Origin: Nitrospirota bacterium
GTDB taxonomy: Bacteria > Nitrospirota > Thermodesulfovibrionia > UBA6902 > JAJYJJ01
Length of the DNA stretch: 64,000 bases
Assembly: GCA_021789595.1 (NCBI GenBank)
Contig: JAJYJJ010000004.1
Coordinates: 1 to 64,000 of the forward strand
Reading direction: 5' to 3'
Part shown: one piece after another, positions 47,428 through 62,011 of the stretch
Layout: the number at the start of each line of letters is the position of its first letter
How positions within the stretch are numbered: position 1 is the stretch's first letter
Notes under the pieces: generated by a model
What the model was told of the DNA's origin: nothing
The model's input: the letters and a program-made list of their open reading frames with translations, nothing else
The model's database searches: none
Program-made: the position numbers and the translations under genes

Positions 47428-47715
47428 ATGACAAAGGCAGGACTTATTGAGACTGTGGCAAAAAGGGTTGACGGCCTCACTAAAAAACAGGTGGAGATAA
47501 TAGTAAATGTGATATTCGACAGCATCAAGAACGCACTTGCCGAGGGCGATAAGGTAGAGATAAGGGATTTTGGCAACTTCAGGCTTAGAAGCAGGAAACA
47601 GAGGCTTGCAAGAAATCCAAAAACAGGCGCTCTGGTCAATGTGCCCCCAAAAAGGGTTCCACACTTCAAGGTTGGCAGGGAACTAAGGTTAATGGTGAAC
47701 AGACAGGGCAACTGA
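47428..47715 (+). CDS. Integration host factor / HU family DNA-bending protein
   Basis: This 95-residue protein has the HU/IHF fold: N-terminal helices (TKAGLIETVAKRVDGLTKKQ), GDKVEIRDFGNFRLR, and the beta-arm RLARNPKTGALVNVPPKR that inserts in the minor groove. The extended arm and its position after rpsA-sppA resemble IhfA/IhfB more than HU. AGGAGG precedes ATG 47428, and the stop overlaps the Rieske gene start by one base. Confidence 0.92.
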   Translation: MTKAGLIETVAKRVDGLTKKQVEIIVNVIFDSIKNALAEGDKVEIRDFGNFRLRSRKQRLARNPKTGALVNVPPKRVPHFKVGRELRLMVNRQGN

Positions 47716-48167
47716 TGTCTGTAGACAGACGGGGCTTTCTTCAACGGGCTGTAAAATACATCTTCGGCCTTATGGGACTTGCTTTTCTCATGCCGATTGC
47801 CTATCTCTATCCATCAACTATAAAGAGGCGCAGGCTGAAATATTTTACCCTGATAGATGAGGATGATGCCCCGCGAAAGGGGATTAAACAGGTTGAACTG
47901 AGTTACGAGCTAAGGGGGGATACTGTGAAGACAAGGATCTTCCTCGTCAGGGAATCATCCGGCGGGCTGCTCTGCCTTTCTCCTGTGTGCAGCCATCTGG
48001 GCTGCCTTGTAAACTGGGACTGGGAAAAAGGCGAGTTCAGATGTCCATGTCATGGGGGCCGATATAATATGGTAGGCAAGAACATCGGAGGGCCTCCACC
48101 ACGACCTCTTGAGAGGCTTCCTATTATTACAAAAGGCGGTATTATCCAGGTAGGGCTCAGGCTCTGA
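47715..48167 (+). CDS. Rieske iron-sulfur protein of a cytochrome b6-type complex
   Basis: This 150-residue protein has an N-terminal twin-arginine-type segment (DRRGFLQRAV), a membrane anchor (about 17-34) and a C-terminal Rieske domain with CSHLGCLVNW and CPCHGGRY (two Cys, two His for the 2Fe-2S cluster), then GPPPRPL. It should carry electrons from menaquinol at the Qo site of the following cytochrome b to a periplasmic acceptor. It begins a cluster with the two cytochrome b pieces. Confidence 0.94.
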   Translation: MSVDRRGFLQRAVKYIFGLMGLAFLMPIAYLYPSTIKRRRLKYFTLIDEDDAPRKGIKQVELSYELRGDTVKTRIFLVRESSGGLLCLSPVCSHLGCLVNWDWEKGEFRCPCHGGRYNMVGKNIGGPPPRPLERLPIITKGGIIQVGLRL

Positions 48168-48169
48168 CA

Positions 48170-48817
48170 ATGGGAAGGATATTCGATTATCTCGACAGTC
48201 GTTTTATCCTCAAGAAGCCGCACAGCGACTTTCTTGAAAGGCCCATCCCACAAAATCTTAATTATTTTTACTGCCTTGGCGGTATTGCATTTACACTATT
48301 CTTATCCCTGCTTCTGACAGGGATTCTTCTGTCAGTATATTATATCCCTTCTGAAAAAGAGGCATATGCAAGCATAAGGTATATCCAGGAACAGGCATAT
48401 CTTGGATGGCTGATAAGAAGCATACACAAATGGTCGGCGAATCTGATGGTCGTCTTTGTCTTTCTCCATATGCTCAGGGTATTTATAACAGGCTCCTATA
48501 AAAGCCCGAGGGAGCTTAACTGGGCAGCAGGTGCGATGCTATTTTTATTTACTATGGCCTTCGGCTTTACAGGCTATCTCCTTCCATGGGACCAGAAGGC
48601 ATACTGGGCGACAGAGGTCGGGACGGCCATGGCAGGGACAATCCCGATATTAGGGAAGCCCATCCTTTATCTCTTAAGGGGAGGTGCTGATATCAGCGAC
48701 CTTACCCTCATAAGGTTTTACAGCCTGCACACATTATGGTTTCCCCTTTCCATGTTTGTTTTGCTGTGGGCACATTTTCACATGATAAGGCAGCAGGGCA
48801 TATCAGGAGGACTTTAA
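48170..48817 (+). CDS. Cytochrome b6-type subunit of a quinol:cytochrome c oxidoreductase
   Basis: This 215-residue protein has four membrane helices with two pairs of heme b histidines (SIHKW...FLHMLRVF and YSLHTLW...AHFHMIR). It closely follows the cytochrome b6 pattern, including WLIRSIHKWSANLMV, SPRELNW and LPWDQKAYWA. Cys35 in NYFYCLGG aligns with the b6f cysteine that binds heme ci covalently. The complex should oxidise menaquinol and move protons. Its stop overlaps the next start by one base. Confidence 0.94.
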   Translation: MGRIFDYLDSRFILKKPHSDFLERPIPQNLNYFYCLGGIAFTLFLSLLLTGILLSVYYIPSEKEAYASIRYIQEQAYLGWLIRSIHKWSANLMVVFVFLHMLRVFITGSYKSPRELNWAAGAMLFLFTMAFGFTGYLLPWDQKAYWATEVGTAMAGTIPILGKPILYLLRGGADISDLTLIRFYSLHTLWFPLSMFVLLWAHFHMIRQQGISGGL

Positions 48818-49188
48818 TGAATGACAAGAGATTCTATCCCGACTATCTCTTTGAGATCACAGTTGTCATCCTCCTCACACTTGGACTTGTCCTCATACTC
48901 AGTCTTTTGTTTCCGCCTGTTATGGGAAGGAAGATCGATTTTCTGGCCCAGTTTCAACCCATGCCTGAATGGTATTTCCTGTGGCTTTATCAGATGATAA
49001 AATATTTCCCCGGGAATTGGGCGTTTGTTGGTGCAGTGCTCATTCCTGCCGCTATGTTCCTTGCCATACTGTTTGCGCCATTGCTTGATAGATCACCAAT
49101 GTTGTCTATCAGAAAGAGGCCTGCAGCAGCCATTGCAGGGGCCATAATCTTAATTGCGGTTATCCTGCTAACCCTGCTTTCATATTAA
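48817..49188 (+). CDS. Cytochrome b C-terminal subunit (subunit IV-like)
   Basis: This 123-residue protein has three membrane helices and the Qo-site motif PEWYFLWLYQMIKYF. It is equivalent to subunit IV of b6f or the C-terminal part of mitochondrial cytochrome b. ATG 48817 has AGGAGG 6 bases upstream and overlaps the b6 stop (TAATG); longer in-frame readings run inside the b6 gene and are rejected. It completes a three-gene Rieske/b complex that lacks its own cytochrome c1 or f; the nearby multiheme cytochrome may take that role. Confidence 0.93.
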   Translation: MNDKRFYPDYLFEITVVILLTLGLVLILSLLFPPVMGRKIDFLAQFQPMPEWYFLWLYQMIKYFPGNWAFVGAVLIPAAMFLAILFAPLLDRSPMLSIRKRPAAAIAGAIILIAVILLTLLSY

Positions 49189-49226
49189 CCTTCAGCCATG
49201 AATTTAAATCATTCATAAAATTGTGA

Positions 49227-49255
49227 TTGACATTGCCCTGGCAGTTGAATAAAAT
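49227..49255 (+). promoter_or_regulatory. Sigma70-type promoter before the 13-heme cytochrome gene
   Basis: TTGACA (49227-49232) and TAAAAT (49250-49255) are spaced by 17 bases in the 121-base gap between the cytochrome b genes and the 13-heme cytochrome gene. It suggests the cytochrome cluster has its own transcription start. No operator-like repeat is evident beside it. Confidence 0.5.
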
Positions 49256-49309
49256 ATGCAAGTTTTATTAAAATTGATTGGATTCAATTCTTCTCAGGAA
49301 GGATAAAGG

Positions 49310-50350
49310 ATGAAGAAAAGAAAGATATTCCTCTATGGGTTAATCTTCTGCACAGGGTTTCTGTCCTTTCTTTATCTCTCTGGTCATAAGGTGGCCTATT
49401 CTGATGTAGACTGCACCCAGTGTCATCCGGATAAATCACAGGGCAAGGTAATACATCCTGCTGTCCAGATGGGCTGCACAGCATGCCATACAGGGGTTGA
49501 TGCATCAGAGGTTCCACACAAAATGACCAATAAAAACCCTAAAGGCCTTTCTGCTGATGCGCCTGAGTTGTGTTTTGGCTGCCATGACAAGAAGATGTTT
49601 GAGGGGAAGGATGTGCATCCGCCTGTTGCAGCAGGGATGTGCCTGAGCTGCCACCATCCACATGTATCTAACAATGAGAAGCTTCTGCGGGCAGAGCCGC
49701 CTGAGTTGTGTTTTGGCTGCCATGACAAGAAGATGTTTGAGGGGAAGGATGTGCATCCGCCTGTTGCAGCAGGGATGTGCCTTACATGCCATAAACCACA
49801 TGCATCCAATAATGAGAAGCTTTTACAGGCAGAGCCGCCAAAGCTCTGTTTTACATGCCATGATGAAGGGATGTTTAAAAAGAAGTTTGTGCATCCACCT
49901 GTTGCAGCAGGGATGTGCCTTACATGCCATAAACCACATGCATCCAGCAATGAAAAGCTTACAGTTTCTCCTGTGCCTGAGCTGTGCTACACATGCCATA
50001 AAAGGAAGGATACAAAGAAGGATGTGCATCCGCCTGTTGCAGCGGGGATGTGTCTTTTCTGCCACAGCCCGCACTCAACAGATAACACGCATCAACTCCT
50101 TCTGCCATTGAACAACCTATGCCTTCAGTGCCATCCTGAGAAGGCATCAGACGGCCATGTTGCCAGAACTTTTGTTTCTCAGTATCATCCTGTTCAGGGT
50201 AAGCCTGATCCATCAAGGCCTGGGCATATGTTAAGCTGTATAAGCTGCCATAATCCACATCAGTCTGACTATATCAGGCTGTTCCAGTTTAAGGCAGAAA
50301 GTGCTTTTGGGATATGTGCTTATTGTCACAAAAATATAGGAGGTATCTGA
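49310..50350 (+). CDS. 13-heme c-type cytochrome with repeated diheme modules
   Basis: This 346-residue protein has an N-terminal signal/anchor (FLYGLIFCTGFLSFLYL) and 13 CXXCH heme motifs (CTQCH, CTACH, CFGCH, CLSCH, CFGCH, CLTCH, CFTCH, CLTCH, CYTCH, CLFCH, CLQCH, CISCH, CAYCH). Residues about 80-230 are tandem 46-residue diheme modules (PPELCFGCHDKKMF, then VHPPVAAGMCLSCH). It should be a periplasmic or membrane-tethered electron wire. It follows the Rieske/b genes and could accept electrons from that complex. The stop is 3 bases before the NHL lipoprotein. Confidence 0.92.
   Translation: MKKRKIFLYGLIFCTGFLSFLYLSGHKVAYSDVDCTQCHPDKSQGKVIHPAVQMGCTACHTGVDASEVPHKMTNKNPKGLSADAPELCFGCHDKKMFEGKDVHPPVAAGMCLSCHHPHVSNNEKLLRAEPPELCFGCHDKKMFEGKDVHPPVAAGMCLTCHKPHASNNEKLLQAEPPKLCFTCHDEGMFKKKFVHPPVAAGMCLTCHKPHASSNEKLTVSPVPELCYTCHKRKDTKKDVHPPVAAGMCLFCHSPHSTDNTHQLLLPLNNLCLQCHPEKASDGHVARTFVSQYHPVQGKPDPSRPGHMLSCISCHNPHQSDYIRLFQFKAESAFGICAYCHKNIGGI
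49560..49782 (+). repeat. Near-identical 138-base tandem repeat in the 13-heme cytochrome gene
   Basis: Bases 49560-49644 are identical to 49698-49782 (85 bases, offset 138). The next 138-base unit is partly diverged but keeps a long block shared with the second unit (about 49763-49808 and 49901-49946). Each unit encodes 46 residues and two hemes, so copy number sets the heme count. Confidence 0.92.
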
Positions 50351-50353
50351 GAA

Positions 50354-51421
50354 GTGAATAAGATAAAGGCACTGGTCTTGGTTTTGCCCCTGCTGGTTTT
50401 ATGCTCCTGCGGTGTAACGCCGCCTCCAAAGATAACTCTATACTGGCCGTCTCCGCCTGATAAGCCGAGGATAAAGTATGTTGAATACTGGTATACAGAG
50501 GAGAATTTCGGCAGGTCTGCATTAGAGTCATTTTCAGAGTACCTTGCCGGTAAGGAAGGGGTTTTAGGTTTTATAAAGCCCTATGACCTTGTGGCAGACT
50601 CAAAGGGCAGTATATATGTCACAGACCCTGCGCAGGGCGCTGTGATAGTTATCGATAAGGAGAAAAAGATATTCAGAAGGATAGGCAAAGATGCCATAGG
50701 AGCCCTGGCTGTCCCATCAGGCATTGCCATCTATGAACCTGAAAGGCTCCTCTTTGTATCCGATACAAAGATGAGGGTCGTGAATGTCTATGACCTGTCT
50801 GGCGCATATAAATACAGCATCGCCAATAAAGGGCAGTTTGGCACCCCAACAGGCCTTGCAGTGGATGCAGCGAGGCAGAGGCTTTATGTCGTAGATACAA
50901 AGCAGAACAAGGTCTTTGCCTTTAAGATAGATGGAACCCCGCTTTTTGGTTTTGGCAGCGGGGGGACTGAGCCAGGGCAGTTTAATTTCCCGATATCAAT
51001 AGCAGTAGACCATGATGGGAATATATATGTTGTTGATATGGGCAATTTCAGGGTCGAGATATTCGACCCCAGTGGAAAATTTTTAAGGACATTTGGCAGT
51101 TTAGGCGACAGGCCAGGGCAGTTTGCAAGGCCAAAGGGTATTGCACTTGATTCAGAGAACCACATATATGTGGTTGATGCTGCCTTCCAGAACTTCCAGA
51201 TATTCGACCAGGAGGGCCATCTCCTCATGTGGGTTGGCAGCGGCGGCATATTTCCGGGGCAGTTCCAGATACCTGCTGGCATATATATAGATGCCCGTGA
51301 CAGGATATATGTTGCAGACCAGTTGAACAACAGGATACAGGTATTTCAGTATATGGGAAAGATATGGCAGGAAAGACAGAGGCTTAAGGAACAGGAAAAG
51401 CAAAGGAAACCTGAGAAATAA
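50354..51421 (+). CDS. NHL-repeat (six-bladed beta-propeller) lipoprotein
   Basis: This 355-residue protein has a lipoprotein signal (ALVLVLPLLVLCSC, lipid cysteine about residue 18-20) and then NHL repeats (PYDLVADSKGSIYVTDP, GLAVDAARQRLYVVDT, SIAVDHDGNIYVVDM, GIALDSENHIYVVDA, GIYIDARDRIYVADQ). It should face the periplasm or outer surface and act as a scaffold. A paralogue lies at 57058-58074, also beside a multiheme cytochrome. GTG 50354 is the start. The C-terminal RLKEQEKQRKPEK is charged. Confidence 0.85.
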   Translation: MNKIKALVLVLPLLVLCSCGVTPPPKITLYWPSPPDKPRIKYVEYWYTEENFGRSALESFSEYLAGKEGVLGFIKPYDLVADSKGSIYVTDPAQGAVIVIDKEKKIFRRIGKDAIGALAVPSGIAIYEPERLLFVSDTKMRVVNVYDLSGAYKYSIANKGQFGTPTGLAVDAARQRLYVVDTKQNKVFAFKIDGTPLFGFGSGGTEPGQFNFPISIAVDHDGNIYVVDMGNFRVEIFDPSGKFLRTFGSLGDRPGQFARPKGIALDSENHIYVVDAAFQNFQIFDQEGHLLMWVGSGGIFPGQFQIPAGIYIDARDRIYVADQLNNRIQVFQYMGKIWQERQRLKEQEKQRKPEK

Positions 51422-51733
51422 GGATGATGCGTGATTTGACGCACCTGATGTGTAAAATGACACGAGGCTGTTCAATAACATAGGCAGTTTTTCTGTTATT
51501 CCTGCGAAGGCATGAATGACAGAACCCTTTGAAAAATAAGTGGATTCCGTGTCAGGCACGGAATGGCAGAGTGCAGTAGGTTGTTAGTAAGGAGGTGGCA
51601 TTAAAATTGCATGAAGAATTTGCATAAAGACTTGCACAGTATCATTGGCTATATTGTGTTATAATATTCGCTGAGGATGGACTCTTAAAAACAGGATTAG
51701 GTTTTAATCCAAAAGAGGAAGGAGGTGAATCAG
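51422..51733 (+). other. 312-base gap with hairpins before the OmcE-like gene
   Basis: No gene is seen here. A perfect hairpin ATTCCGTG / CACGGAAT occupies 51544-51564, and TGCGT / ACGCA follows the upstream stop. TATAAT at 51660-51665 could be a -10 box, but no good -35 is found at the right spacing. The strong AAGGAGG before 51734 belongs to the next gene. The long leader may hold regulation of the cytochrome. Confidence 0.5.
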
Positions 51734-52474
51734 ATGAGAAAGATCTTAGTTTTAGGTTTAGCAGGCATATTGGTTCTTATGGCTATAGGTATAGCAATGG
51801 CCCTAACCGCAGGCCCCACTACCATCTATGGCAGCTATCATGACCTGAGCTCCTCTGGTAAGGCACTAACTGCAACAAATGTCAACCAGATATGCGTATT
51901 CTGCCATACTCCGCACAGCGGCCTGGCCTTAAGTGGTGACTACGCCTATCTCTGGAACAGGTGGGCATCCACAACAACATATCAGACTTATACGAGCAGC
52001 ACGATGAATGCTACTGAGCCGAGCACCATGTCAGGTGTATCAGCCATATGCCTGAGCTGCCATGACGGCTCAGTCGCCATTGGTGTGTTAAATAATGTCT
52101 ACGGGCAAAACTTTACAGCCACATTCACACAGACAGCAAACTCAAACGCATCTTATAACACAAGCACTCCTGGCTGGAAGATGACAGCAGGTCTGCCGTT
52201 TCTTGGCACGGATTTAAGGAACGACCATCCTGTTGGCTTTACCTATGATTCAGCTTTAGCAGCTGCTGATGGAGGGCTTCAGACCCCTGGGACAAACTCT
52301 GTTACAGGGACCACAAATGGCACAGGCATTACCCTTACGCTCTTCAACCAGAAGCTTGAGTGTGCAACATGCCACAATGTGCACAGGCCAGGTGCTACAA
52401 CAACAGGTGATTTCCCATTCCTAAAGGCTTCTAACAACAACTCCTCTCTGTGTCTCACATGCCATCTGAAATAG
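51734..52474 (+). CDS. Tetraheme c-type cytochrome resembling OmcE (filament-forming type)
   Basis: This 246-residue protein has a signal peptide (about 1-26), then GSYHDLSS and four CXXCH motifs: CVFCHTPH (54-58), CLSCHDGS (106-110), CATCHNVH (210-214) and CLTCH (240-244, two residues from the end). The order HTPH, LWN, SCHDGSVA, LGTDLRNDHPVGFTYD, LECATCHNVH and final LCLTCH resembles my recollection of Geobacter OmcE, a tetraheme subunit of extracellular cytochrome filaments. The Ser/Thr-rich middle is unusual and could be glycosylated. ATG 51734 follows AGGAGG. Filament formation is inferred, not shown. Confidence 0.82.
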   Translation: MRKILVLGLAGILVLMAIGIAMALTAGPTTIYGSYHDLSSSGKALTATNVNQICVFCHTPHSGLALSGDYAYLWNRWASTTTYQTYTSSTMNATEPSTMSGVSAICLSCHDGSVAIGVLNNVYGQNFTATFTQTANSNASYNTSTPGWKMTAGLPFLGTDLRNDHPVGFTYDSALAAADGGLQTPGTNSVTGTTNGTGITLTLFNQKLECATCHNVHRPGATTTGDFPFLKASNNNSSLCLTCHLK

Positions 52475-54189
52475 CAACGGCTTCAAAAAGGGGTATTGGT
52501 AAAACAATATCCCTTTTTTTCTCTATTGTAATCTTACTGTCTTCTGTCGTATATCTTAATACCATCCACAACGAATTCCTTTGGGATGACGAGAACATGA
52601 TTCTGAGGAATCCAACGCTTATAGACCCGTGGACGGCTCTTACACATACAGAGGGCTCTGCCCTGGGTAGAAGGCCCATTACAAACTTCTCCTTTGGCAT
52701 TGACAGATGGCTTTTCGGTATAAGGCCGGAGGGCTATCATATGACAAACATAATCCTTAATGCAGCGGATGCTGCCCTGTTTTTCTTCATAGCACTGAGG
52801 ATTTTCAGGTTCCTCTACGGCTCAACAATTTCAGGAGAGAGACAGGAGATTGCTTCGGGGACTGCGTCCCCTCGCAATGACAGCCCCTCTGTTGTTGGGG
52901 GTGATTTGTCATTGCGAGAAGCGCGGAGCGATCTCGTTTTTCTGTGGCCTGCCTTTTTCAGCGCCCTTATATTCGGCCTTCACCCTATCCACACAGAGGC
53001 AGTAGCATCGTTTCTCGGAAGGTCAGACCTCCTCGGCAGCCTTTTTTATTTCCTCGGGCTTCTGTTTTATATGAAGGCTGTAGAGGCAAGGCGCTTCATA
53101 TATTACGGCCTCTTCTTTGCCTCCTACATCCTTTCCCTTTTATCAAAGGAGATGGCAGTCACCCTTCCATTTATAGCCATATTATACGAGATGACCTTTC
53201 CATACGGCCTTGATATAAGGAGATGGTTTAAAGAGAGGTGGAGGGCTGTCTGCATTGTCCTTCTTATCACTGTTGGGCCTGCTTTATTCTACATAACATC
53301 CTATGGGATAGTAACGCCCTCTACTTTAGATACCCAACCCTACTGGGGAGGCAATATCCTTAACACATCCCTTATGATGCTTACGGTTATAAAGGAATAC
53401 CTGAGGCTGTTGTTTTTCCCTGTAAAGCTCTGCGCCTGGTATGTGACAGATGTCCCTTCAGTGAGCGAGGTTGCGCTTTCAGCAGGCCTTTTGCTTTCCC
53501 TTATCGCATTATTGATATGGGGCATAAGAAAAAACCGAATCGTCTTTTTCTCTATAGCATGTTTTTTTATCTCCCTTATCCCTGTTTTGAATATCGTCCC
53601 TATCCCCGGCTCTATGATGGCAGAGAGATGGCTTTATATACCATCTATGGGATTTGGGCTTATAGCAGGATATTACATATATAAGCTCAGGGCCAATCCT
53701 AAAGGTTCGGTGTTTGCCATACCGCTGCTTATTATCCTCCTCGGCCTTTACGCCGCAAGGGATGTTACGAGGAATGAGGTCTGGAGGACAGGATATGTAT
53801 TCTACACTGACATGATAAGGTGCTGCCCCAAGGGCTATCACGGCTATTACAACCTCGGAAATGTCTTCAGGGACATGGGCAGATATGACGAGGCTGCATA
53901 TTACTGGCAGCTTGCCCTGAAGATTGCGCCAGGGCACAGCATGGCGCATAATAACCTCGGCGATTACTACCTGATGAAGGGGAGGAAAGACCTTGCACTC
54001 GGTGAATTCCTTCAGGCTGTGAGATTTGATAAAAGGAATGTCGAGGCGAATTACAACCTCGGCATGCTCTTCTATGAGACGGGCTTTAAGGATGAGGCAA
54101 GGAAATACCTCCTAGTATTCCTTAAAATCGCTCCGTCTGATTATGAAAAACAAAAAGACATGGTAAGGAGGATTCTTGAAAGCCCTTGA
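52459..54189 (+). CDS. TMTC-like membrane glycosyltransferase with C-terminal TPRs
   Basis: This 576-residue protein has about ten membrane helices in its first 420 residues, with the acidic motif EFLWDDENMI after the first helix, as in GT-C O-mannosyltransferase-like (TMTC/DUF1736) proteins. Tetratricopeptide repeats follow (YNLGNVFRDMGRYDEAAYYW, NNLGDYYLMKGRKDLALGEF, YNLGMLFYETG). It overlaps the OmcE-like gene by 16 bases, so the two are made together. A palindromic repeat is inserted in frame at about residues 129-160. ATG 52459 or GTG 52450 may start. Sugar transfer to cytochromes is inferred from context. Confidence 0.75.
   Translation: MPSEIATASKRGIGKTISLFFSIVILLSSVVYLNTIHNEFLWDDENMILRNPTLIDPWTALTHTEGSALGRRPITNFSFGIDRWLFGIRPEGYHMTNIILNAADAALFFFIALRIFRFLYGSTISGERQEIASGTASPRNDSPSVVGGDLSLREARSDLVFLWPAFFSALIFGLHPIHTEAVASFLGRSDLLGSLFYFLGLLFYMKAVEARRFIYYGLFFASYILSLLSKEMAVTLPFIAILYEMTFPYGLDIRRWFKERWRAVCIVLLITVGPALFYITSYGIVTPSTLDTQPYWGGNILNTSLMMLTVIKEYLRLLFFPVKLCAWYVTDVPSVSEVALSAGLLLSLIALLIWGIRKNRIVFFSIACFFISLIPVLNIVPIPGSMMAERWLYIPSMGFGLIAGYYIYKLRANPKGSVFAIPLLIILLGLYAARDVTRNEVWRTGYVFYTDMIRCCPKGYHGYYNLGNVFRDMGRYDEAAYYWQLALKIAPGHSMAHNNLGDYYLMKGRKDLALGEFLQAVRFDKRNVEANYNLGMLFYETGFKDEARKYLLVFLKIAPSDYEKQKDMVRRILESP
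52845..52937 (+). repeat. Palindromic repeat halves inserted in frame in the TMTC-like gene
   Basis: CTCGCAATGACA (52871-52882) and TGTCATTGCGAG (52907-52918) are the arms of the repeat family seen at 24687 and 33919, here in the opposite (outward) order with 24 bases between. The flanks carry GAGATTGCTTCGG and GCGATCTCG, which are also repeat interior. The whole stretch stays in frame and encodes Ser/Arg/Asp-rich residues absent from the paralogue at 59873. Confidence 0.85.
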
Positions 54190-54213
54190 CATTTTAGCTT
54201 GAGTTTTTATAAT
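54186..54213 (+). promoter_or_regulatory. Sigma70-type promoter for the ppiC-barrel-cytochrome operon
   Basis: TTGACA (54186-54191) and TATAAT (54208-54213) are both perfect consensus, spaced by 16 bases. The -35 overlaps the TGA of the TMTC-like gene. It lies about 70 bases before the PpiC-type gene. The second cytochrome module can thus be transcribed on its own. Confidence 0.65.
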
Positions 54214-54284
54214 AATGTGATTTTTGGACTGATGAAACGGCAATAAATAATAGAGATGTAAAATACTTCAGAAAGAAGGCTCAT

Positions 54285-55271
54285 ATGAAACCAAAGGAAC
54301 TGTTTTTTGGTCTGGTTCTTGCTTGCCTTATATCTGTCGTTGTTAATACTGCTGTGGCATCTCAGGCTATAGCTCCGACTGGCTCAGTAGTTGCAATGGT
54401 CAATGGACTGCCTGTTACAGTATATGACCTTAACGATGCGCTGCAGAGGATACTGCCTATGGCAAGCTATCACGGCAATATCTCAGGGGATAAACTCCTT
54501 GAGCTTAGAAAGAAAGCGCTTCAGGAGGCCATTGATAAGGAGCTCCTCTCACAGGAGGCTGTAAGAGTTGGCATAAAGGTATCCAGGGCAGAGATAGATG
54601 GAGATTTAGATGTGGTGAGGAAGCGTTTCCCTTCGGATAAGGATTTTAAGGCAGCGATGAAAAACAGCGGTATAACGCTGAAACAATATACAGAGGCCAT
54701 TAAAAAGGGGATTCTGGTGAGGAAGCTTCTCAATAAGGAGGTATATTCAAAGGCTGTAACAGATGCTGAGATTAGGGCATACTATGATAATAATAAGTCC
54801 CGCTTTTTAGAGCCTGAGAGGGTAAGGGTCTTTTATATACTCCTTAAGGTTGACCCTGCAGCCACAAACGATGAGAGGAAAAAGGTGTTAGAGAAGGCAA
54901 AGGATATTGCAAAGAAGGCAAAGGCAGGCGAGGATTTTTCTGCACTCGCATGGAAGTACTCAGAGGATGCATACAGGGTAAAGGGCGGTGACCTCGGTTT
55001 CATCCACAGGGGGATGCTTGCCTCTGAGATAGAGAATGTCGTCTTTTCCCTTAAAGATGGCGAGGTAGCCGGGCCGATAGAGACCCTTGAGGGCTACAGC
55101 ATTGTAAAGGTGGGCAGGAAAGAGCCTCAAAGGCAGTTGTCGTTTTCAGAGATAAAGGACAAGTTAAAAAAAGACCTCGAGCGTCAGAGGACAGAAAAGG
55201 CATTAATGGACATCAAACAGAGATTAAGGAATAAGGCAAAGATAGAGATAATGGATAAGGCCTTGCGATGA
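54285..55271 (+). CDS. PpiC/SurA-type peptidyl-prolyl isomerase, exported
   Basis: This 328-residue protein has a signal peptide (about 1-27), a SurA-like N-terminal chaperone region (VAMVNGLPVTVYDLNDALQ; EAIDKELLSQEA) and a parvulin domain at about 178-275 (RVFYILLKV, AGEDFSALAWKYSED, GGDLGFI, LEGYSIVKVG). It should help fold the outer-membrane barrel and cytochromes encoded next to it. It is the first gene after a consensus promoter. Confidence 0.88.
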   Translation: MKPKELFFGLVLACLISVVVNTAVASQAIAPTGSVVAMVNGLPVTVYDLNDALQRILPMASYHGNISGDKLLELRKKALQEAIDKELLSQEAVRVGIKVSRAEIDGDLDVVRKRFPSDKDFKAAMKNSGITLKQYTEAIKKGILVRKLLNKEVYSKAVTDAEIRAYYDNNKSRFLEPERVRVFYILLKVDPAATNDERKKVLEKAKDIAKKAKAGEDFSALAWKYSEDAYRVKGGDLGFIHRGMLASEIENVVFSLKDGEVAGPIETLEGYSIVKVGRKEPQRQLSFSEIKDKLKKDLERQRTEKALMDIKQRLRNKAKIEIMDKALR

Positions 55272-55299
55272 GGAATGCATCAGACAGGGGTTCCTGGGA

Positions 55300-57045
55300 A
55301 TGAGCCATATAAGAGCATCCTTTTATGGGACAGCCTTCATTTTTTTTGCTGTCATGTCGGCTTTATTATTCTCAAAAGATGCTTATGCACTTACAGGGGC
55401 ATACGGCTTTGATGTGTTAAGGTGGGAGCAGGCACAGAGGTTCAGGGTGTCGGGTGACCTGGAGTTGAGCTACAGGGACTATACTGCTGAGTCAGCCGGG
55501 TATAAGACAAGGCAGAGGACATTTCAACAGCGATACAGGCTCAAACTTAAAGGATACATATACAGACCGAGACTTGCTATATTTGAAGCATCGCTTTCCT
55601 ATATAAAGACAAAGGATAAATATGATCAGGATGTATTTAACACAAAGGGCATTTACTATGGGCTCTTTGCTGTTTTGCTGCCGAGGACAAATTTCCCTAC
55701 GCTCTTGTACTTTGACAGGAGCACATCGCATCTCAACCCGAGCAGTGCACCTAATTACCAGGTAACAACCACGCTCGTTGGTATAGTGACAAATTGGATG
55801 ATAAGAAGTGGCATGTATCTGAGTCTTACAGCCGTCAATACAAAGAGCGATATAACATCACCTGTCACACCGAGAAAAGAAAATGACAAGTTCTATGCTG
55901 TTGAGTTTTCAAAGAGCTATAGGACAGGAGGTTTCCGTATAAATTACCAGCACTTTGATTATAAGGATGTAATTATAGACCGGAGAGAAAAAGACCATAC
56001 TATTAATATTGATGCAACGCAGAGGCTTGCAGGTTACACCAGGAGAAATGGTGAGACACATATACTACTGTCAGAGGATTTTTATTTCACAAAGCAGGAT
56101 ACCACACAGACTGATACTGCACCGATAAGGCAGAAGAGCTACTACCTCTACATCACACTTAATATCCAGAAGAAGAATTTCGAAACAAATACATATTACA
56201 ATTTCAACAAATATGATTACAACGATTCAAAATATCAAAGCCATAGTATAACAAATGCGAGCACATACAGGCCGACGCCAACCCTGCTTTTAAGCGAGGG
56301 TCTTTCATTTACCAGGGCAAGCTCTGATAACCAGAGCAGCACCTCTTATTCTGCAAACCTCGGCGCCGCATATAGCAGATTATATAAGGGTTACTCCTTA
56401 TATGCCGGCACATCCGTAGGCTATTTCGGCGCATCCAACGCGCCGAACACATTTTCTACAAACATGAATGCAGGCATAGCAACCCCGACCTTTGGCAGGA
56501 AACTGTATTACAACGGCTATTACGGCATCTCTGGATATTACACAACAGCAGGGGACAATGGCGGCAGGAACGACCTCGGTATAAACTTTGGTCTAAGGGA
56601 TATCGGGAGGTTTTCTCTTAATGGTCAGTCGAGCGTATATTATCTCATGACCAGGTCGAAGGAATTCGCAACCCAGACAGGATACGGCGGAACCATAACA
56701 GGGAATGCCTATTTCAGGGCAGCATGGTTTGCAGTATTGGATGCCCATTCCACATACGCTATGGGGCGGTCAGACGGCTCTGAGGCAAAAAGCATGGATG
56801 TCAGTGGAGGCGTTACACTGAATCTTATCAGAAACCTCGATATAAGGGGGACTGCAAGACATTATAACTCATCCACAAATGTTGGCGATAAATATACGGC
56901 TAAGGAGATTACAGGGATGCTGAATTATAGATTCAGGAAGCTCTTTCTCGACCTCTCATACGATATCTATGATGAACAATACAGCGACAACCCAAAAACC
57001 AAGAGAAAGACCATCTTCATGGCTGTAAGAAGGGAATTCAGGTAG
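55300..57045 (+). CDS. Outer-membrane beta-barrel protein (putative electron-conduit porin)
   Basis: This 581-residue protein has a signal peptide (about 1-31) and then many alternating amphipathic strands with aromatic girdle residues (SGDLELSYRDYT, RYRLKLKGYIY, KLYYNGYYGISGYY). It ends in a strand, IFMAVRREFR. No named family is certain; the closest idea is the large porin of porin-cytochrome conduits (MtrB/OmbB-like role). It lies between the isomerase and the NHL/multiheme pair, which supports that role. Function is inferred from fold and context. Confidence 0.72.
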   Translation: MSHIRASFYGTAFIFFAVMSALLFSKDAYALTGAYGFDVLRWEQAQRFRVSGDLELSYRDYTAESAGYKTRQRTFQQRYRLKLKGYIYRPRLAIFEASLSYIKTKDKYDQDVFNTKGIYYGLFAVLLPRTNFPTLLYFDRSTSHLNPSSAPNYQVTTTLVGIVTNWMIRSGMYLSLTAVNTKSDITSPVTPRKENDKFYAVEFSKSYRTGGFRINYQHFDYKDVIIDRREKDHTINIDATQRLAGYTRRNGETHILLSEDFYFTKQDTTQTDTAPIRQKSYYLYITLNIQKKNFETNTYYNFNKYDYNDSKYQSHSITNASTYRPTPTLLLSEGLSFTRASSDNQSSTSYSANLGAAYSRLYKGYSLYAGTSVGYFGASNAPNTFSTNMNAGIATPTFGRKLYYNGYYGISGYYTTAGDNGGRNDLGINFGLRDIGRFSLNGQSSVYYLMTRSKEFATQTGYGGTITGNAYFRAAWFAVLDAHSTYAMGRSDGSEAKSMDVSGGVTLNLIRNLDIRGTARHYNSSTNVGDKYTAKEITGMLNYRFRKLFLDLSYDIYDEQYSDNPKTKRKTIFMAVRREFR

Positions 57046-57057
57046 CATGGCTTTATT

Positions 57058-58074
57058 ATGAAGAATATCCTATTAGCTGTTGTTATTGTATTTCTTGCCC
57101 AATGTTCAGGCCCGGGGGCAGAACTGAAAGAGGAGGCGAACCTCTTCTATCCTCCGCCTCCGCAGAGGCCGAGGATACAGTATATCAGGACTATAGCCTC
57201 CCCTGAGGACATCGGGATAACGAGGTCATGGTTTAAAAAGACAATGCATACCATCTTTGGCTCAGGGTCAGAAAACGAGGACAGATTTATACGGCCGTAC
57301 TGCGTATTCTTCCATAATGGAAGGCTCTATGTAACAGACCCTGGATTTGCCTCCGTGCATGTGATGGACATTGAGGGGAAGAGATATCTGAGATTCTATC
57401 ATATAAAGAAGGATATTGACCTGATATCCCCGATAGGGGTTGTAGCGGATAATTCAGGCAGGATATATGTATCGGATTCTGTGCTGGATAAGGTTTTTGT
57501 CTTTGGCAGAGACGGCAGGTTTGATTTCTCATTTGGATATGATTTTAAGAGGCCAACAGGCATCGCCATTGATGAAGGCAGAGGTGTTATCTATGTGGTT
57601 GACACGCTTGCTGATAAGGTGGATGTCTTTAACCTCAAGGGAGAATTCCAGTTCTCCTTTGGGAAGAAGGGAGAGGGTGATGGCGAGTTCAATTATCCGA
57701 CGCATATCTTTTTCAAGGAAGGCCGTATCTATGTCACTGATACGATGAACTTCAGGATACAGGTATTTGATGGGAAAGGCAGATTCCTCTATAAGTTCGG
57801 GAGGCCTGGCGATGGCTCAGGGGACTTCTCAAAACCAAAAGGTGTTGCCTCTGACAAAGAGGGACACATATATGTTGTTGATTCAGACTTTGATAATGTC
57901 CAGATATTTACACCAGAAGGCAAGCTTCTTTTATACTTTGGCAGTGAAGGTAAAGGCAGGGCAGGGTTCTCTGTCCCTGCTGGAATTTTTATAGACGCTG
58001 ATGATAGGATCTATGTTGCTGATTCCTACAACAGCAGGATTCAGGTCTACAGGTATCTGAGGGAGAAGGAATGA
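57058..58074 (+). CDS. NHL-repeat (six-bladed beta-propeller) lipoprotein, second copy
   Basis: This 338-residue protein has a lipoprotein signal (LLAVVIVFLAQC, lipid cysteine about residue 16) and five or six NHL blades (PIGVVADNSGRIYVSDS, GIAIDEGRGVIYVVDT, THIFFKEGRIYVTDT, GVASDKEGHIYVVDS, GIFIDADDRIYVADS). It is a paralogue of the protein at 50354-51421, including the FYPPPPQRPRIQYI opening. It overlaps the next cytochrome gene by 4 bases. A scaffold or docking role for the cytochromes is inferred. Confidence 0.85.
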   Translation: MKNILLAVVIVFLAQCSGPGAELKEEANLFYPPPPQRPRIQYIRTIASPEDIGITRSWFKKTMHTIFGSGSENEDRFIRPYCVFFHNGRLYVTDPGFASVHVMDIEGKRYLRFYHIKKDIDLISPIGVVADNSGRIYVSDSVLDKVFVFGRDGRFDFSFGYDFKRPTGIAIDEGRGVIYVVDTLADKVDVFNLKGEFQFSFGKKGEGDGEFNYPTHIFFKEGRIYVTDTMNFRIQVFDGKGRFLYKFGRPGDGSGDFSKPKGVASDKEGHIYVVDSDFDNVQIFTPEGKLLLYFGSEGKGRAGFSVPAGIFIDADDRIYVADSYNSRIQVYRYLREKE

Positions 58075-59876
58075 GAATGAAAAGATTGTTGCTTCTGACA
58101 GGCATCCTTTTATACATCCTTGGCAGTTTCATCTCTGTCCATGCCGGGCCAAAGTCTGTGGCCGACCCAAAGAACAAACATAATCTGTCCATATCAGGTC
58201 CGGGCCCTATTAAGGCATTAAATGAGACACAGGTATGCATATTCTGCCATACGCCGCATAATGCAAACCCTGAAGGTCCTCTGTGGAACAAGGATACCAA
58301 CGCAAAGACGACCTATATCAACTACTGGAGCCATACGCTCAATACATATACATCTCCAAAAAATGCACCTAACATCAATGGCGTATCAAAGATGTGCCTG
58401 AGCTGCCACGACGGGACTATTGCGATAGGCGCTGTTAGAAGCAGGCCGCAGGGTATTGCAGTGACTTCTTCTTCACAAGGTCTATTAAGCGCAGAGGGCA
58501 GGCTTACATCAGTCCCTGGATTAATAGGCACAGACCTTTCAGGAAGCCATCCCATATCATTTGTCTTTGACCAGAGGCTTGCTGCCTTAAATCCATCCCT
58601 CATTGTCCCGTCTGACAGGGATGTAAGGCTTGACCGCAATGGCGAGATGCAGTGCACATCATGCCATGACCCGCATGACGACAGTAAAGCAAATGACCAG
58701 AATAACCCGGATCTGCATTTCTGGCAAAAGGCGACTTTTGATGAGGTATGCCTTGCCTGCCATAGTTTTACTAAAAAGACAGCAAAGAACCCTGTTCACC
58801 TCGACACACAGAAGATGTTGAAGGGCTGTGGAAGCTGCCATAAGGGACACGGCATGCAGAATACAGCAATGCTTCCTTCAAGCAGTGAGAGCAAGGAATG
58901 CTTCCAATGCCACGGCGATTCAACTGTTGTGGCCAAGGCAAAGAATGCGAGGATAATCGCCAGCACCGTTACGATGCAGAACCAGGATGTGGAGAAGGAA
59001 TTTCAGAAGCCTTATCACCATCCTATAGAGACAGAGGCGCTCCACAGCGACAGCGAGATACTTCCAGAGACAGACGCATCTCAGAAAAGGCATGTTGCCT
59101 GCGCTGACTGCCACAATGTCCACACAGCAACAAAGGAGAATCCTGTCGCAGGGGTATCAGGCTCAAGGTCAGGCAGGGTATTTGTAGAACAGACAGATAA
59201 GGAATATGAGGTGTGTTACAAGTGCCACTCCTATAACTATAACCTGCCAGGCGATGAGAAGAACAAGGCATTGGAGTTCAACCCTACGAATCAATCCTAT
59301 CACCCTGTAGAGGCTGTTGGAAAGAATACGAGGGTTCCAAGCCTTATATATCCGCTCACAACCTCAAGTATAATAAAGTGCACAGACTGCCACGGCAGCG
59401 ATGACATTAACGCGCCGAAGGGCCCGCACGGCTCAATCTACAGGTATATATTGAGATGGAATTATTCTACTGCTGACGGCCAGCCGGAAAGCCCATTCAG
59501 CTATCAGCTCTGCTATCAGTGCCATAAGAGGGAAAACCTCCTGAGCAATGCAAGCTTCAAGGAACACAACAGGCATATAAACATGACATCATGCTATACA
59601 TGCCACAATTCCCACGGCAGCAAGTCAAACCCATATCTGCTTGAATTTAACCCTACGGTTGTATTCCCCAATAAAGACGGCATCCTCAGCTATATTGACC
59701 ACGGAGGAGGAAATGTGGAGTGTTTTCTCAGATGCCACAATTATGACCACGGCAGTTTGTCTTCATCTCAGACAAAGACATCGCCGCAGTATGGGTCTCC
59801 TGCTACACCATTTACACCAGGGCCATTCACGCCGGGGCCATTTAATCCATTTCCGTTCCCTCCAAAAAAGAGGTGA
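58071..59876 (+). CDS. Large multiheme c-type cytochrome (11 CXXCH plus one CX3CH)
   Basis: This 601-residue protein has a signal peptide (about 1-25). Its N-terminal third repeats the OmcE-like tetraheme plan (CIFCHTPH, CLSCHDGT, LIGTDLSGSHPISF, CTSCHDPH, CLACH), and seven more CXXCH motifs follow (CGSCH, CFQCH, CADCH, CYKCH, CTDCH, CYQCH, CYTCH). A CX3CH site, VECFLRCHN, lies near residue 548. The C-terminus is a Pro/Thr-rich tail (TPFTPGPFTPGPFNPFPF). It should be an outer-membrane-associated or extracellular electron carrier beside the barrel. It overlaps the NHL gene by 4 bases. Confidence 0.9.
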   Translation: MRMKRLLLLTGILLYILGSFISVHAGPKSVADPKNKHNLSISGPGPIKALNETQVCIFCHTPHNANPEGPLWNKDTNAKTTYINYWSHTLNTYTSPKNAPNINGVSKMCLSCHDGTIAIGAVRSRPQGIAVTSSSQGLLSAEGRLTSVPGLIGTDLSGSHPISFVFDQRLAALNPSLIVPSDRDVRLDRNGEMQCTSCHDPHDDSKANDQNNPDLHFWQKATFDEVCLACHSFTKKTAKNPVHLDTQKMLKGCGSCHKGHGMQNTAMLPSSSESKECFQCHGDSTVVAKAKNARIIASTVTMQNQDVEKEFQKPYHHPIETEALHSDSEILPETDASQKRHVACADCHNVHTATKENPVAGVSGSRSGRVFVEQTDKEYEVCYKCHSYNYNLPGDEKNKALEFNPTNQSYHPVEAVGKNTRVPSLIYPLTTSSIIKCTDCHGSDDINAPKGPHGSIYRYILRWNYSTADGQPESPFSYQLCYQCHKRENLLSNASFKEHNRHINMTSCYTCHNSHGSKSNPYLLEFNPTVVFPNKDGILSYIDHGGGNVECFLRCHNYDHGSLSSSQTKTSPQYGSPATPFTPGPFTPGPFNPFPFPPKKR

Positions 59877-62011
59877 GTCATAAAAAGGCCATAGTGTTGC
59901 TATTGTTTCTTACACTATGCCTCTATGCAAATTCCCTCAATGGCAGGTTTCTCTGGGACGATCATATCCTTATAGAGAAAAACCCATTCATAAAGGTCTC
60001 ATCCATAAAGGGTATAACCCATATGTTCTCCTATCCTCCGGAAAATAAGGTCGAATATCTGCCGCTGAGGGATCTGAGCTATGCGATGGATTATTCCTTA
60101 TGGGGACTAAACCCTGTCGGTTATCATATAACAAATGTAATCCTTTACTCACTGACAGTAGTCACAGTCTATCTCATCCTTCTGAGATTATTCAGGCTGT
60201 TTAAACCCGGTAATGATACAGCCGCACTGCTCGGCACCCTTATATTCATGGCACATCCTGTCCATGTGGAGGCCGTTGCATGGATAACAGGCAGAAACAC
60301 TGTGATATCAGGGCTTTTTATGTTCCTGTCATTTTACACCTATCTAATTTATAGGGAGAGAAGAAAGGCAGGATTCTACATCCTTTCGCTTGTCCTTTTT
60401 CTTTTTGCTGTGTTCTCAAAGGCAACTGCGATTGTGCTGCCGTTCATGCTGATTTCTCTGGAGCTTATACTCGGTAAATCTAACCCCCCCTCGCCCCCCT
60501 TTACTAAAGGGGGGAGGGGGGGGATTTTAAAGACCACAGGCCCATTCTTTATCCTGATGGCTGCTGTTACCTATCTCCACATATCTGTAGCAAAGGCTAC
60601 AGGTATTATGAGTCCCCAAGTGATAAGGTTTGGAATGGACAGATTATCCATGAGATTGATGACAGCCCTGATTATCCCACAGTATTATCTCAAGATGTTT
60701 TTCTTCCCTTTTGGCTACAGGGCTGAATATTCTGTCTCTTATCCAACAGGTTTTTCTGATATCAGGATACCCATCGCACTGATAGTGCTTGTGACAATAA
60801 TATTACTGCTTATAAGATTCAGGAGAGACAGGGTTGTAGTCTTTTCATTTTTATGGTTTTTGTGCGGGCTTGTGCCTGTGCTTAACTTTTTTCCGACAAA
60901 CCCTGTGATAGCAGAAAGATACATGTATATATCTTCCTTAGGGCTTTCTATGCTGACAGGGTATCTGGTTACAAGACTTTACTCCAAAAACATGTTAGTA
61001 TTTTATGGCCTATCAGTTGTCCTGGTTGTCTGCCTCGGCCTTCTGACCGTCTTCAGAAACAATGTCTGGAGCAATGATGTTACTCTCTGGAGGGATGAGC
61101 TGAAGAAAGAACCCACATCCACAAAGGCTTATTACAACATCGTTGAATACTATCTGCAAAGCGGCAGATACAATGATGCCCTTTCCGTAATCAAAGAGCT
61201 TCAATCTAAAGCTGACAATACCTTCTATCCTGAGTTTCTCATGGGCAAATATTTCCTTCTTAATGGGGATTATAATGCTGCGGCATCTTATATGAAACAG
61301 GCAATCAACAAGGGCGGTGATACATCTATCGAGGTACACTTCTACCTTGCCTTTGCCCTTATCGGTGAAAGGGATGTAATGGGGGCAATAGATGAGTTTA
61401 ACAAGGTTCTGGAGTCAGAGGATGTGGACCCTGCTGGTATGTATGGCAGGATTGCAAAGGAGCAGTTGAATACCTTGAGGCAGGGTTTTGCATATAAGAT
61501 TAAGGAGATGCAAGATGCGATTGAGGCAACTCCGTATGGCAGCAAGGGCTTTGAAAACCGCTTCAGGCTTGCATACCTCTATGACACACTTGGTGAGTAT
61601 AAACAGGCGGTAAAGGAATATCAGGCATGTATATCCATAGATGGAAACAACTGGGTACCGTACAACAACCTCGGGAATATCTTCCAGAAGCTGAGGATGT
61701 ATAAGAATGCAGAAAGGCAATATCTTTATGCCCTGTCATTGAATCCGGGTAATCTTGATATAATGAACAACCTTGGCATCATATACAGGAAACAGGGCAG
61801 GATAGATAAGGCAATACAGTATTTCATGATGGCTATAGACAGAGACAGCAATTTCCTCTTTGCCAATTTTAACCTTGCAAGGCTGTATTTTTATATTGGG
61901 AATAAGGATGCGGCTTTTAAATATTTTAACAGGAGCAGGGAATTGGCCCGGGGTAATAATGATTTGATAGCAAACATAGATCAGTATATAGATGCACTAA
62001 AAAAAGGATGA
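59873..62011 (+). CDS. TMTC-like membrane glycosyltransferase with TPRs, second copy
   Basis: This 712-residue protein is a paralogue of the 52459-54189 product. It has RFLWDDHILIEKNPFI after the first helix, LNPVGYHITNVILYSL, HPVHVEAVAWITGRNT, about ten membrane helices and then C-terminal TPRs (YNNLGNIFQKLRMYKNAERQY, NNLGIIYRKQGRIDKAIQYF). GTG 59873 overlaps the preceding cytochrome stop as GTGA. A G/C-run palindrome adds residues about 203-219 (NPPSPPFTKGGRGG) in frame. Glycosyl transfer to exported cytochromes is inferred. Confidence 0.75.
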   Translation: MSHKKAIVLLLFLTLCLYANSLNGRFLWDDHILIEKNPFIKVSSIKGITHMFSYPPENKVEYLPLRDLSYAMDYSLWGLNPVGYHITNVILYSLTVVTVYLILLRLFRLFKPGNDTAALLGTLIFMAHPVHVEAVAWITGRNTVISGLFMFLSFYTYLIYRERRKAGFYILSLVLFLFAVFSKATAIVLPFMLISLELILGKSNPPSPPFTKGGRGGILKTTGPFFILMAAVTYLHISVAKATGIMSPQVIRFGMDRLSMRLMTALIIPQYYLKMFFFPFGYRAEYSVSYPTGFSDIRIPIALIVLVTIILLLIRFRRDRVVVFSFLWFLCGLVPVLNFFPTNPVIAERYMYISSLGLSMLTGYLVTRLYSKNMLVFYGLSVVLVVCLGLLTVFRNNVWSNDVTLWRDELKKEPTSTKAYYNIVEYYLQSGRYNDALSVIKELQSKADNTFYPEFLMGKYFLLNGDYNAAASYMKQAINKGGDTSIEVHFYLAFALIGERDVMGAIDEFNKVLESEDVDPAGMYGRIAKEQLNTLRQGFAYKIKEMQDAIEATPYGSKGFENRFRLAYLYDTLGEYKQAVKEYQACISIDGNNWVPYNNLGNIFQKLRMYKNAERQYLYALSLNPGNLDIMNNLGIIYRKQGRIDKAIQYFMMAIDRDSNFLFANFNLARLYFYIGNKDAAFKYFNRSRELARGNNDLIANIDQYIDALKKG
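60481..60526 (+). repeat. C-run/G-run palindrome inserted in frame in the second TMTC-like gene
   Basis: A CCCCCCTTTA / TAAAGGGGGG inverted repeat with flanking C- and G-runs (60481-60526) encodes NPPSPPFTKGGRGG in a loop between membrane helices. A similar G-run unit occurs at 30270-30312. The paralogue at 52459 lacks it. Confidence 0.88.

Follow-up and report, generated by a model that had tools for sequence, protein, structure and literature searches.

The window, a stretch of 64,000 nt from a Nitrospirota bacterium, encodes a small protein with four CXXCH heme motifs at 51734-52474, amid further cytochrome genes. The question raised by this locus is whether that protein is, like OmcE of Geobacter sulfurreducens, the repeating subunit of an extracellular cytochrome filament, and what part the genes around it would then play.

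The tetraheme protein and its relatives

The gene and its ribosome-binding site are as follows.

51734-52474, + strand: OmcE-like (UetA-type) tetraheme cytochrome of 246 aa, predicted to be secreted, candidate filament subunit (from the ORF and homology)
51720-51727, + strand: Shine-Dalgarno sequence AGGAGGTG, 6 nt 5′ of the ATG at 51734 (read directly)

A sequence-only reading had placed the start at ATG 51734, and this is borne out by the Shine-Dalgarno sequence 5′ of it; the longer mechanical start, GTG 51725, falls within the ribosome-binding site, so that the ATG is preferable. The four heme motifs are those described earlier (CVFCH-TPH, CLSCHDG, CATCHNVH and CLTCH), all within 246 codons. 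A pattern scan locates their codings at 51893, 52049, 52361 and 52451, and the fourth motif lies two residues from the C-terminal end. Genome-wide, the degenerate CXXCH pattern is found 518 times versus 70 for the reversed pattern. By a simple hydropathy count there is one hydrophobic stretch, at the N-terminus only, which agrees with the predicted signal without a membrane anchor.

In a single-sequence PDB search the tetraheme protein matched OmcE (7tfs_A, E 3.3e-29; 44.7 % identity over 197 aligned residues) and 9yuq_N (E 2.8e-23), a chain annotated as ‘putative multiheme cytochrome c’ in an entry of 16 chains, and nothing else notable. With a 16-sequence profile these two matches reach 1.2e-54 and 7.5e-46, respectively, followed by the weaker OmcS (0.00034, over 16 residues), MtrA (0.0015) and NrfB (0.028). 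The window protein, OmcE and 9yuq_N are about equidistant, at 44-45 % pairwise identity, and the similarity to OmcE spans the whole mature protein. On these alignments homology to OmcE, proposed in the sequence-only reading, is near certain. Kinship to the soluble periplasmic tetraheme cytochromes of the NapC/NrfB kind had been named as the counter-test. It failed: no NapC chain was among the matches, and NrfB appeared only with the family profile, at the value given above as against 1.2e-54 for OmcE. Membership of this soluble kind is very improbable; the weak NCBIfam matches that speak for it (NrfH, 22.1 bits with a cut-off of 134.2; NrfB, 14.9 bits with a cut-off of 166.6) all score under their cut-offs.

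All eight axial positions are histidine in the window protein, OmcE and 9yuq. In an alignment of 97 sequences, made up of 95 four-heme relatives from the loci described below and the two PDB chains and numbered from the GTG, H39 is kept in 96 sequences, H64 in 92 and each of the other six in all 97. An N-terminal histidine within SYHDLS had been singled out earlier as the residue to look for; it is H36 counted from the ATG, that is H39 of the alignment, and it is present. Heme 2 of OmcE takes one of its ligands, a histidine, from the neighbouring subunit (PMC12203936). The window protein holds exactly eight histidines, four proximal ones within CXXCH and four distal ones. With only those eight, one distal histidine would be shared between subunits in the manner of OmcE. 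The shared residue is most likely the HDLS one, judging in part by analogy with the OmcS structure, and it would ligate the heme of the neighbouring subunit.

The middle loop had been described as rich in Ser and Thr and in this respect unlike OmcE. The first part stands, as Ser and Thr make up 23.2 % of the 99 residues between hemes 2 and 3 compared with 14.0 % in OmcE; within the family the loop is no outlier (median 19.0 %, rank 83 of 97). The window protein thus resembles OmcE (7tfs) in its full-length homology, its heme and histidine positions, its predicted secretion and its C-terminal last heme, and differs in a loop that is longer and richer in Ser/Thr. An AlphaFold2 model of the monomer, built with 16 relatives, reached a mean pLDDT of 44.6 and a pTM of 0.29, and no conclusion was drawn from it. 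OmcE is a filament (PMC9473688), and filament formation by the window protein, as a candidate subunit, is likely from its sequence.

The surrounding gene cluster

From 47715 to 62011 every gene is on the + strand, and neighbours either overlap or stand close together; the widest gap, 303 nt, is 5′ of the longest ORF of the tetraheme gene. Apart from that gene, the features are as follows.

47715-48167, + strand: Rieske iron-sulfur protein (PF00355)
48170-48817, + strand: cytochrome b6-type subunit (PF00033)
48736-49188, + strand: cytochrome b C-terminal (subunit IV) ORF (PF00032), its true start probably close to the end of the preceding gene
49310-50350, + strand: MtrA-like multiheme cytochrome with 13 CXXCH (6r2q_A, E 1.8e-18), presumed periplasmic to transmembrane conduit
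50354-51421, + strand: NHL beta-propeller protein 1, UetH/I-like, with a lipoprotein-like signal by eye (Pfam/NCBIfam)
52450-54189, + strand: membrane protein of the GT-C (PMT_2-like) type carrying TPR repeats; its PMT_2 match (E 0.00048) falls short of the Pfam cut-off, and its gene overlaps the tetraheme gene at the 3′ end of the latter
54186-54213, + strand: sigma70-like promoter matching 12/12 consensus positions, 71 nt 5′ of the PPIase gene (by consensus match alone)
54285-55271, + strand: SurA/PpiC-type peptidyl-prolyl isomerase (PPIase), UetB-like (Pfam/NCBIfam)
55300-57045, + strand: predicted outer-membrane beta-barrel with 28 predicted strands, UetC/MtrB-like (structure model)
57058-58074, + strand: NHL beta-propeller protein 2, UetH/I-like (Pfam/NCBIfam)
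58071-59876, + strand: UetJ-like cytochrome with 11 CXXCH and one CX3CH, OmcE-like domain at about residues 25-235, candidate filament base
59873-62011, + strand: second GT-C-like/TPR membrane protein (27 % identity to the first), overlapping the UetJ-like gene by 4 nt
62092-63189, + strand: lipoprotein-like cytochrome with a CxxxxCH/CxxCH domain (TIGR01904), membership in the set uncertain

Promoter-like sites across the region number 31 versus 32.8 in shuffles, which is no excess. The domain of the last cytochrome in the list, whose gene lies directly past the cluster, is known from Geobacter.

The makeup of the cluster resembles that of Uet (undecaheme electron transfer), a system of Tenderiales and Gallionella. 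In the excerpted description of Uet, UetJ is an undecaheme cytochrome, UetA an extracellular tetraheme cytochrome, UetB a PPIase, UetC a barrel, UetDEG triheme cytochromes and UetHI NHL proteins (PMC10734462). Matched by these published roles, the tetraheme, PPIase, barrel, two NHL and 11-CXXCH genes are all present in the window, and the order tetraheme, PPIase, barrel, NHL, 11-CXXCH cytochrome is likewise that of Uet. Unlike Uet, the window has MtrA-like 13-heme and Rieske/cytochrome b genes upstream and two inserted GT-C/TPR genes. No ORF between 47.3 and 64 kb of the window is labelled triheme, and for lack of these genes the cluster is termed ‘Uet-like’ rather than Uet. A gammaproteobacterial locus (L129) has the order tetraheme, PPIase, barrel-family, triheme, NHL, long cytochrome. 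The Rieske/cytochrome b genes 5′ of the MtrA-like gene resemble the petB/petC-containing ‘PCC4’ clusters (PMC13264449). Placement within a conduit gene set also sets the window gene apart from omcE, which is predicted to be monocistronic in G. sulfurreducens (PMC1829397).

The barrel protein has no Pfam or NCBIfam match. Its AlphaFold2 model (28-sequence alignment) has a mean pLDDT of 86.8, a pTM of 0.70 and 28 strands between residues 48 and 580; MtrB has 26 strands. The top Foldseek match of the model in the PDB is MtrB (6r2q_B, E 6.3e-12, TM 0.47/0.43), with other barrels scoring close behind. In VIA-align MtrB scores Z 16.9 across 449 residues, a value that several porins equal or slightly exceed over shorter alignments; the likeness to MtrB is thus that of the fold search. 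A terminal Phe or Trp is the customary mark of outer-membrane barrels, and it ends 41 of the 64 barrel family members versus 34 of 858 other proteins. A search of the window's own genome for MtrB_PioB (PF11854) gave one sub-threshold match, on contig C28, and none in the window barrel. The cluster resembles MtrCAB (6r2q) in having an MtrA-like cytochrome by sequence and an MtrB-like barrel by fold. The OmcA/MtrC family (TIGR03507) is absent for 58071-59876 and below cut-off for 51725-52474 and 49310-50350.

In the osc (omcS companion) cluster, OscH is a prolyl isomerase and OscD a propeller. The likeness of the window to that cluster lies in folding, secretion and morphology proteins encoded beside a filament cytochrome (PMC13194489); the difference is that the candidate subunit of the window is of the OmcE type and not of the OmcS type. 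The PPIase of the window would help the subunit to fold.

From the kinship and the gene set together, the tetraheme protein is held, with somewhat better than even confidence, to be the main building block of an extracellular cytochrome filament of the OmcE type, with a Uet-like outer-membrane conduit encoded around it to serve the filament. The protein could instead stay monomeric, either bound to the surface or secreted, and act as the final carrier of a porin-cytochrome complex without any filament. The excerpted Uet description is in keeping with such a monomer, in that it has an extracellular tetraheme cytochrome and names no filament (PMC10734462). The nearest solved relative, OmcE, is nevertheless a filament, and every axial histidine position is kept with none to spare (eight for four hemes); a monomer is accordingly rated unlikely, and the filament subunit is the reading followed here.

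Along such a filament system, electrons would pass from quinol to the Rieske/cytochrome b complex (47715-49188), then to the MtrA-like 13-heme cytochrome within the large barrel, from there to the UetJ-like cytochrome at the surface and finally into the polymer of the tetraheme subunit. The reverse direction, in which Fe(II), a cathode or a partner cell would feed electrons into the conduit in the way proposed for Tenderiales and Gallionella, is a serious possibility, though somewhat the less expected one. Uet is named in cathode-oxidizing Tenderiales and in iron oxidizers (PMC10734462, PMC13386937), and the Rieske/cytochrome b complex directly upstream could run either way. OmcE and OmcS, on the other hand, come from metal reducers (PMC12307469), and the window sequence fixes neither direction.

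GT-C and TPR segments in one protein recall the layout of the metazoan TMTC O-mannosyltransferases, and the protein encoded at 52450-54189 is possibly a glycosyltransferase, as its sequence suggests. OmcE is glycosylated (PMC9473688). In the window a GT-C-like/TPR gene overlaps the 3′ end of each of the two OmcE-family genes, which is suggestive only. Glycosylation by such neighbours as a conserved trait was rejected: with GT-C-like genes or membrane proteins of >400 aa with ≥6 TM segments counted, such a neighbour lies within 5 kb of 14 of the 70 OmcE-like/UetJ genes from the class and of 14 of the 124 from other loci, compared with 26 of 124 controls. Given no enrichment elsewhere, dedicated glycosylation is a guess at the level of the window. 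A third PMT_2 gene comes after (L034:3299-4969).

The UetJ-like cytochrome and the distribution of both forms

The UetJ-like protein itself contains an OmcE-like domain. The product of 58071-59876 matches OmcE at E 1.4e-23 with its N-terminal part (main stretch residues 25-166) and MtrA at only 2.3e-8, over residues 191-284; the OmcE-like domain makes up its N-terminal third. A search of the window's own genome found three OmcE-like places only, namely this domain, the tetraheme protein and a paralog of 58 % identity on contig C28. The paralog (C28:27144-27920; L033:7145-7921) adjoins a threonyl-tRNA synthetase gene and has a fifth CXXCH between hemes 2 and 3; with such a side heme the wire could be branched and lie more in the open. 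Five-heme forms account for 21 of the 131 short OmcE-like relatives. About 8 kb from the paralog, a DmsE-family decaheme-type cytochrome gene (C28:35385-37999; L033:15386-18000; TIGR03508, 257.5 bits with a cut-off of 192.2) is followed by the large ORF with the sub-threshold MtrB_PioB match, the pair forming a second porin-cytochrome conduit.

Of 200 genomes sampled from the window's class, Thermodesulfovibrionia, 96 have an OmcE-like match (E ≤ 1e-5), and a scan of species genomes gave at least 526 relatives. Among the matches listed, 79 loci from 17 named phyla were retained; as most of them are metagenome bins, an isolated odd phylum may reflect a binning error. One possible such error is a Desulfurococcales archaeon bin (L108), in which a 3.8-kb contig pairs an OmcE-like gene with an NHL gene. 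Gene calls, family profiles, TM counts and the terminator scan used scripts of our own. Of the 79 loci, 47, from ten named phyla, contain a long, UetJ-like cytochrome, among the matches listed. The 46 of these loci that reach ≥15 kb hold a barrel in 36, NHL proteins in 34, a UetJ-like cytochrome in 33 and a PPIase in 10 cases, again among the matches listed. Twenty random 20-kb control stretches from genomes of the class held no barrel, NHL, short or long form, one PPIase and three other multiheme cytochromes. Since loci L035-L052 were picked partly for visible OmcE/UetJ pairs, co-occurrence was counted over the 79 loci instead. Short and long forms stand together in 26 of the 46 loci of ≥15 kb and in 34 of all 79, among the matches listed, the latter being the fairer number because some of the 79 were fetched via the UetJ domain itself.

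Of 63 UetJ-like proteins, 57 have 11 CXXCH motifs. An extra CX3CH close to the end is found in 44 of the 63, and in 42 of the 44 aligned rows that were left after five proteins with ten CXXCH, one with thirteen and 13 of ≥760 aa were dropped. With 11 CXXCH and a conserved CX3CH, these cytochromes probably bind 12 hemes. A split form exists in seven loci (L045, L046, L052, L104, L180, L188 and L190), where an OmcE-like gene directly adjoins a 7-CXXCH gene.

The sequences suggest that UetJ, seen as an OmcE-like domain plus an eight-heme domain, may be the filament base, a ‘subunit zero’ whose OmcE-like domain would offer the filament interface on the cell surface. The domain could also be there by descent only, with UetJ as an ordinary terminal outer-surface cytochrome off the filament or as a cap at its far tip, and this is nearly, though not quite, an even prospect. 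In a tree of 164 rows (99 short forms, 63 long N-domains and two PDB chains), 66 of 67 UetJ-N domains, four split ones counted, fall on one side of a branch with weak support (SH-aLRT 64), the exception being a long-branch Geothrix row; OmcE, 9yuq and the window subunit fall on the other side. The two domain lineages thus part as old duplicates would. Descent alone fits less well with the joint occurrence of both forms in the loci counted above, and with an HDLS-like histidine in 44 of 44 UetJ rows. Ligand counting, tried as a means to tell a donated N-terminal histidine from one used in cis, does not discriminate: 23 histidine positions are invariant (44/44) for the 12 hemes, and five more are kept in 41 to 43 of the 44 rows (93-98 %). 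These five near-invariant extra histidines spoil the count as a docking test, and it cannot separate a base from a cap.

A hairpin downstream of the tetraheme gene

One further feature lies at the 3′ end of the candidate subunit gene.

52485-52521, + strand: terminator-like hairpin with a 14-bp stem and U tract, candidate attenuator (by folding)

It starts 10 nt past the stop codon of the tetraheme gene, within the 5′ end of the next ORF, and folds at −20.9 kcal/mol (z −6.44), a value equalled by none of 200 shuffles. The hairpin was spotted first in the window and then tested on the other loci with a script of our own (stem ≥7, T-rich tail, ≤90 nt; genes of <120 aa or close to a locus end left out). 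Hairpins were found 3′ of 43 of 114 short OmcE-like genes (42/113 without the window). The remaining genes of these loci have one in 34 of 1292 cases (Fisher p 3e-30), and shuffled downstream sequences in 9 of 1140. By class, they follow 2 of 65 long cytochromes, none of seven split domains, 3 of 134 NHL genes, 2 of 73 barrels, none of 34 PPIases and 7 of 168 other cytochromes. Across five scan settings, the number of short OmcE-like genes with a hairpin ranged from 35 to 50 of the 114. Four-heme genes carry it in 42 of 95 cases versus 1 of 19 five-heme genes. A same-strand gene begins within 300 nt past 32 of the 43 hairpins, and in 28 of these 32 it is a member of the set. The window's class contributes 26 of the 43, so that the cases are not all independent, and 17 come from records with a named phylum.

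The simplest reading is that the hairpin acts as an attenuator: most transcripts would stop there, so that far more would be made of the tetraheme protein than of the single-copy barrel, propellers and long cytochrome. Excess production would suit the secreted monomeric carrier considered above as well as the filament subunit, and as a monomer made in bulk would show the same hairpin, the hairpin is no proof of a filament.

With attenuation added, a broader reading of the family may be formed, in which UetJ-type cytochromes are fused ‘subunits zero’ that sit on an MtrB-like barrel and nucleate OmcE-type nanowires, passing electrons on through a shared heme ligand, and Uet is a nanowire system of many phyla whose subunit is overproduced by a conserved attenuator. 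This reading is tentative, and on present evidence it is more doubtful than not. Neither UetA as a filament nor an OmcE-like domain in UetJ is mentioned in the excerpted Uet description (PMC10734462). No OmcE-UetA/UetJ link in print was found in the part of the literature that was searched, and this absence is weak evidence. New here are the OmcE-type subunit in a Uet-like conduit, the subunit-like domain in UetJ-type cytochromes and the hairpin signature.

As a mark of an overproduced subunit that is read from sequence only, the hairpin could help to pick filament genes from among multiheme cytochromes. How cytochrome filaments are anchored, and where electrons enter them, are counted among the open questions in reviews (PMC12307469). 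For these questions, a conserved cytochrome in which a filament-subunit domain is fused to a heme chain, encoded beside a barrel, offers a defined protein pair. If the filament reading is true, OmcE-type wires would extend past metal-reducing Geobacter into a lineage of Thermodesulfovibrionia and into many other phyla.
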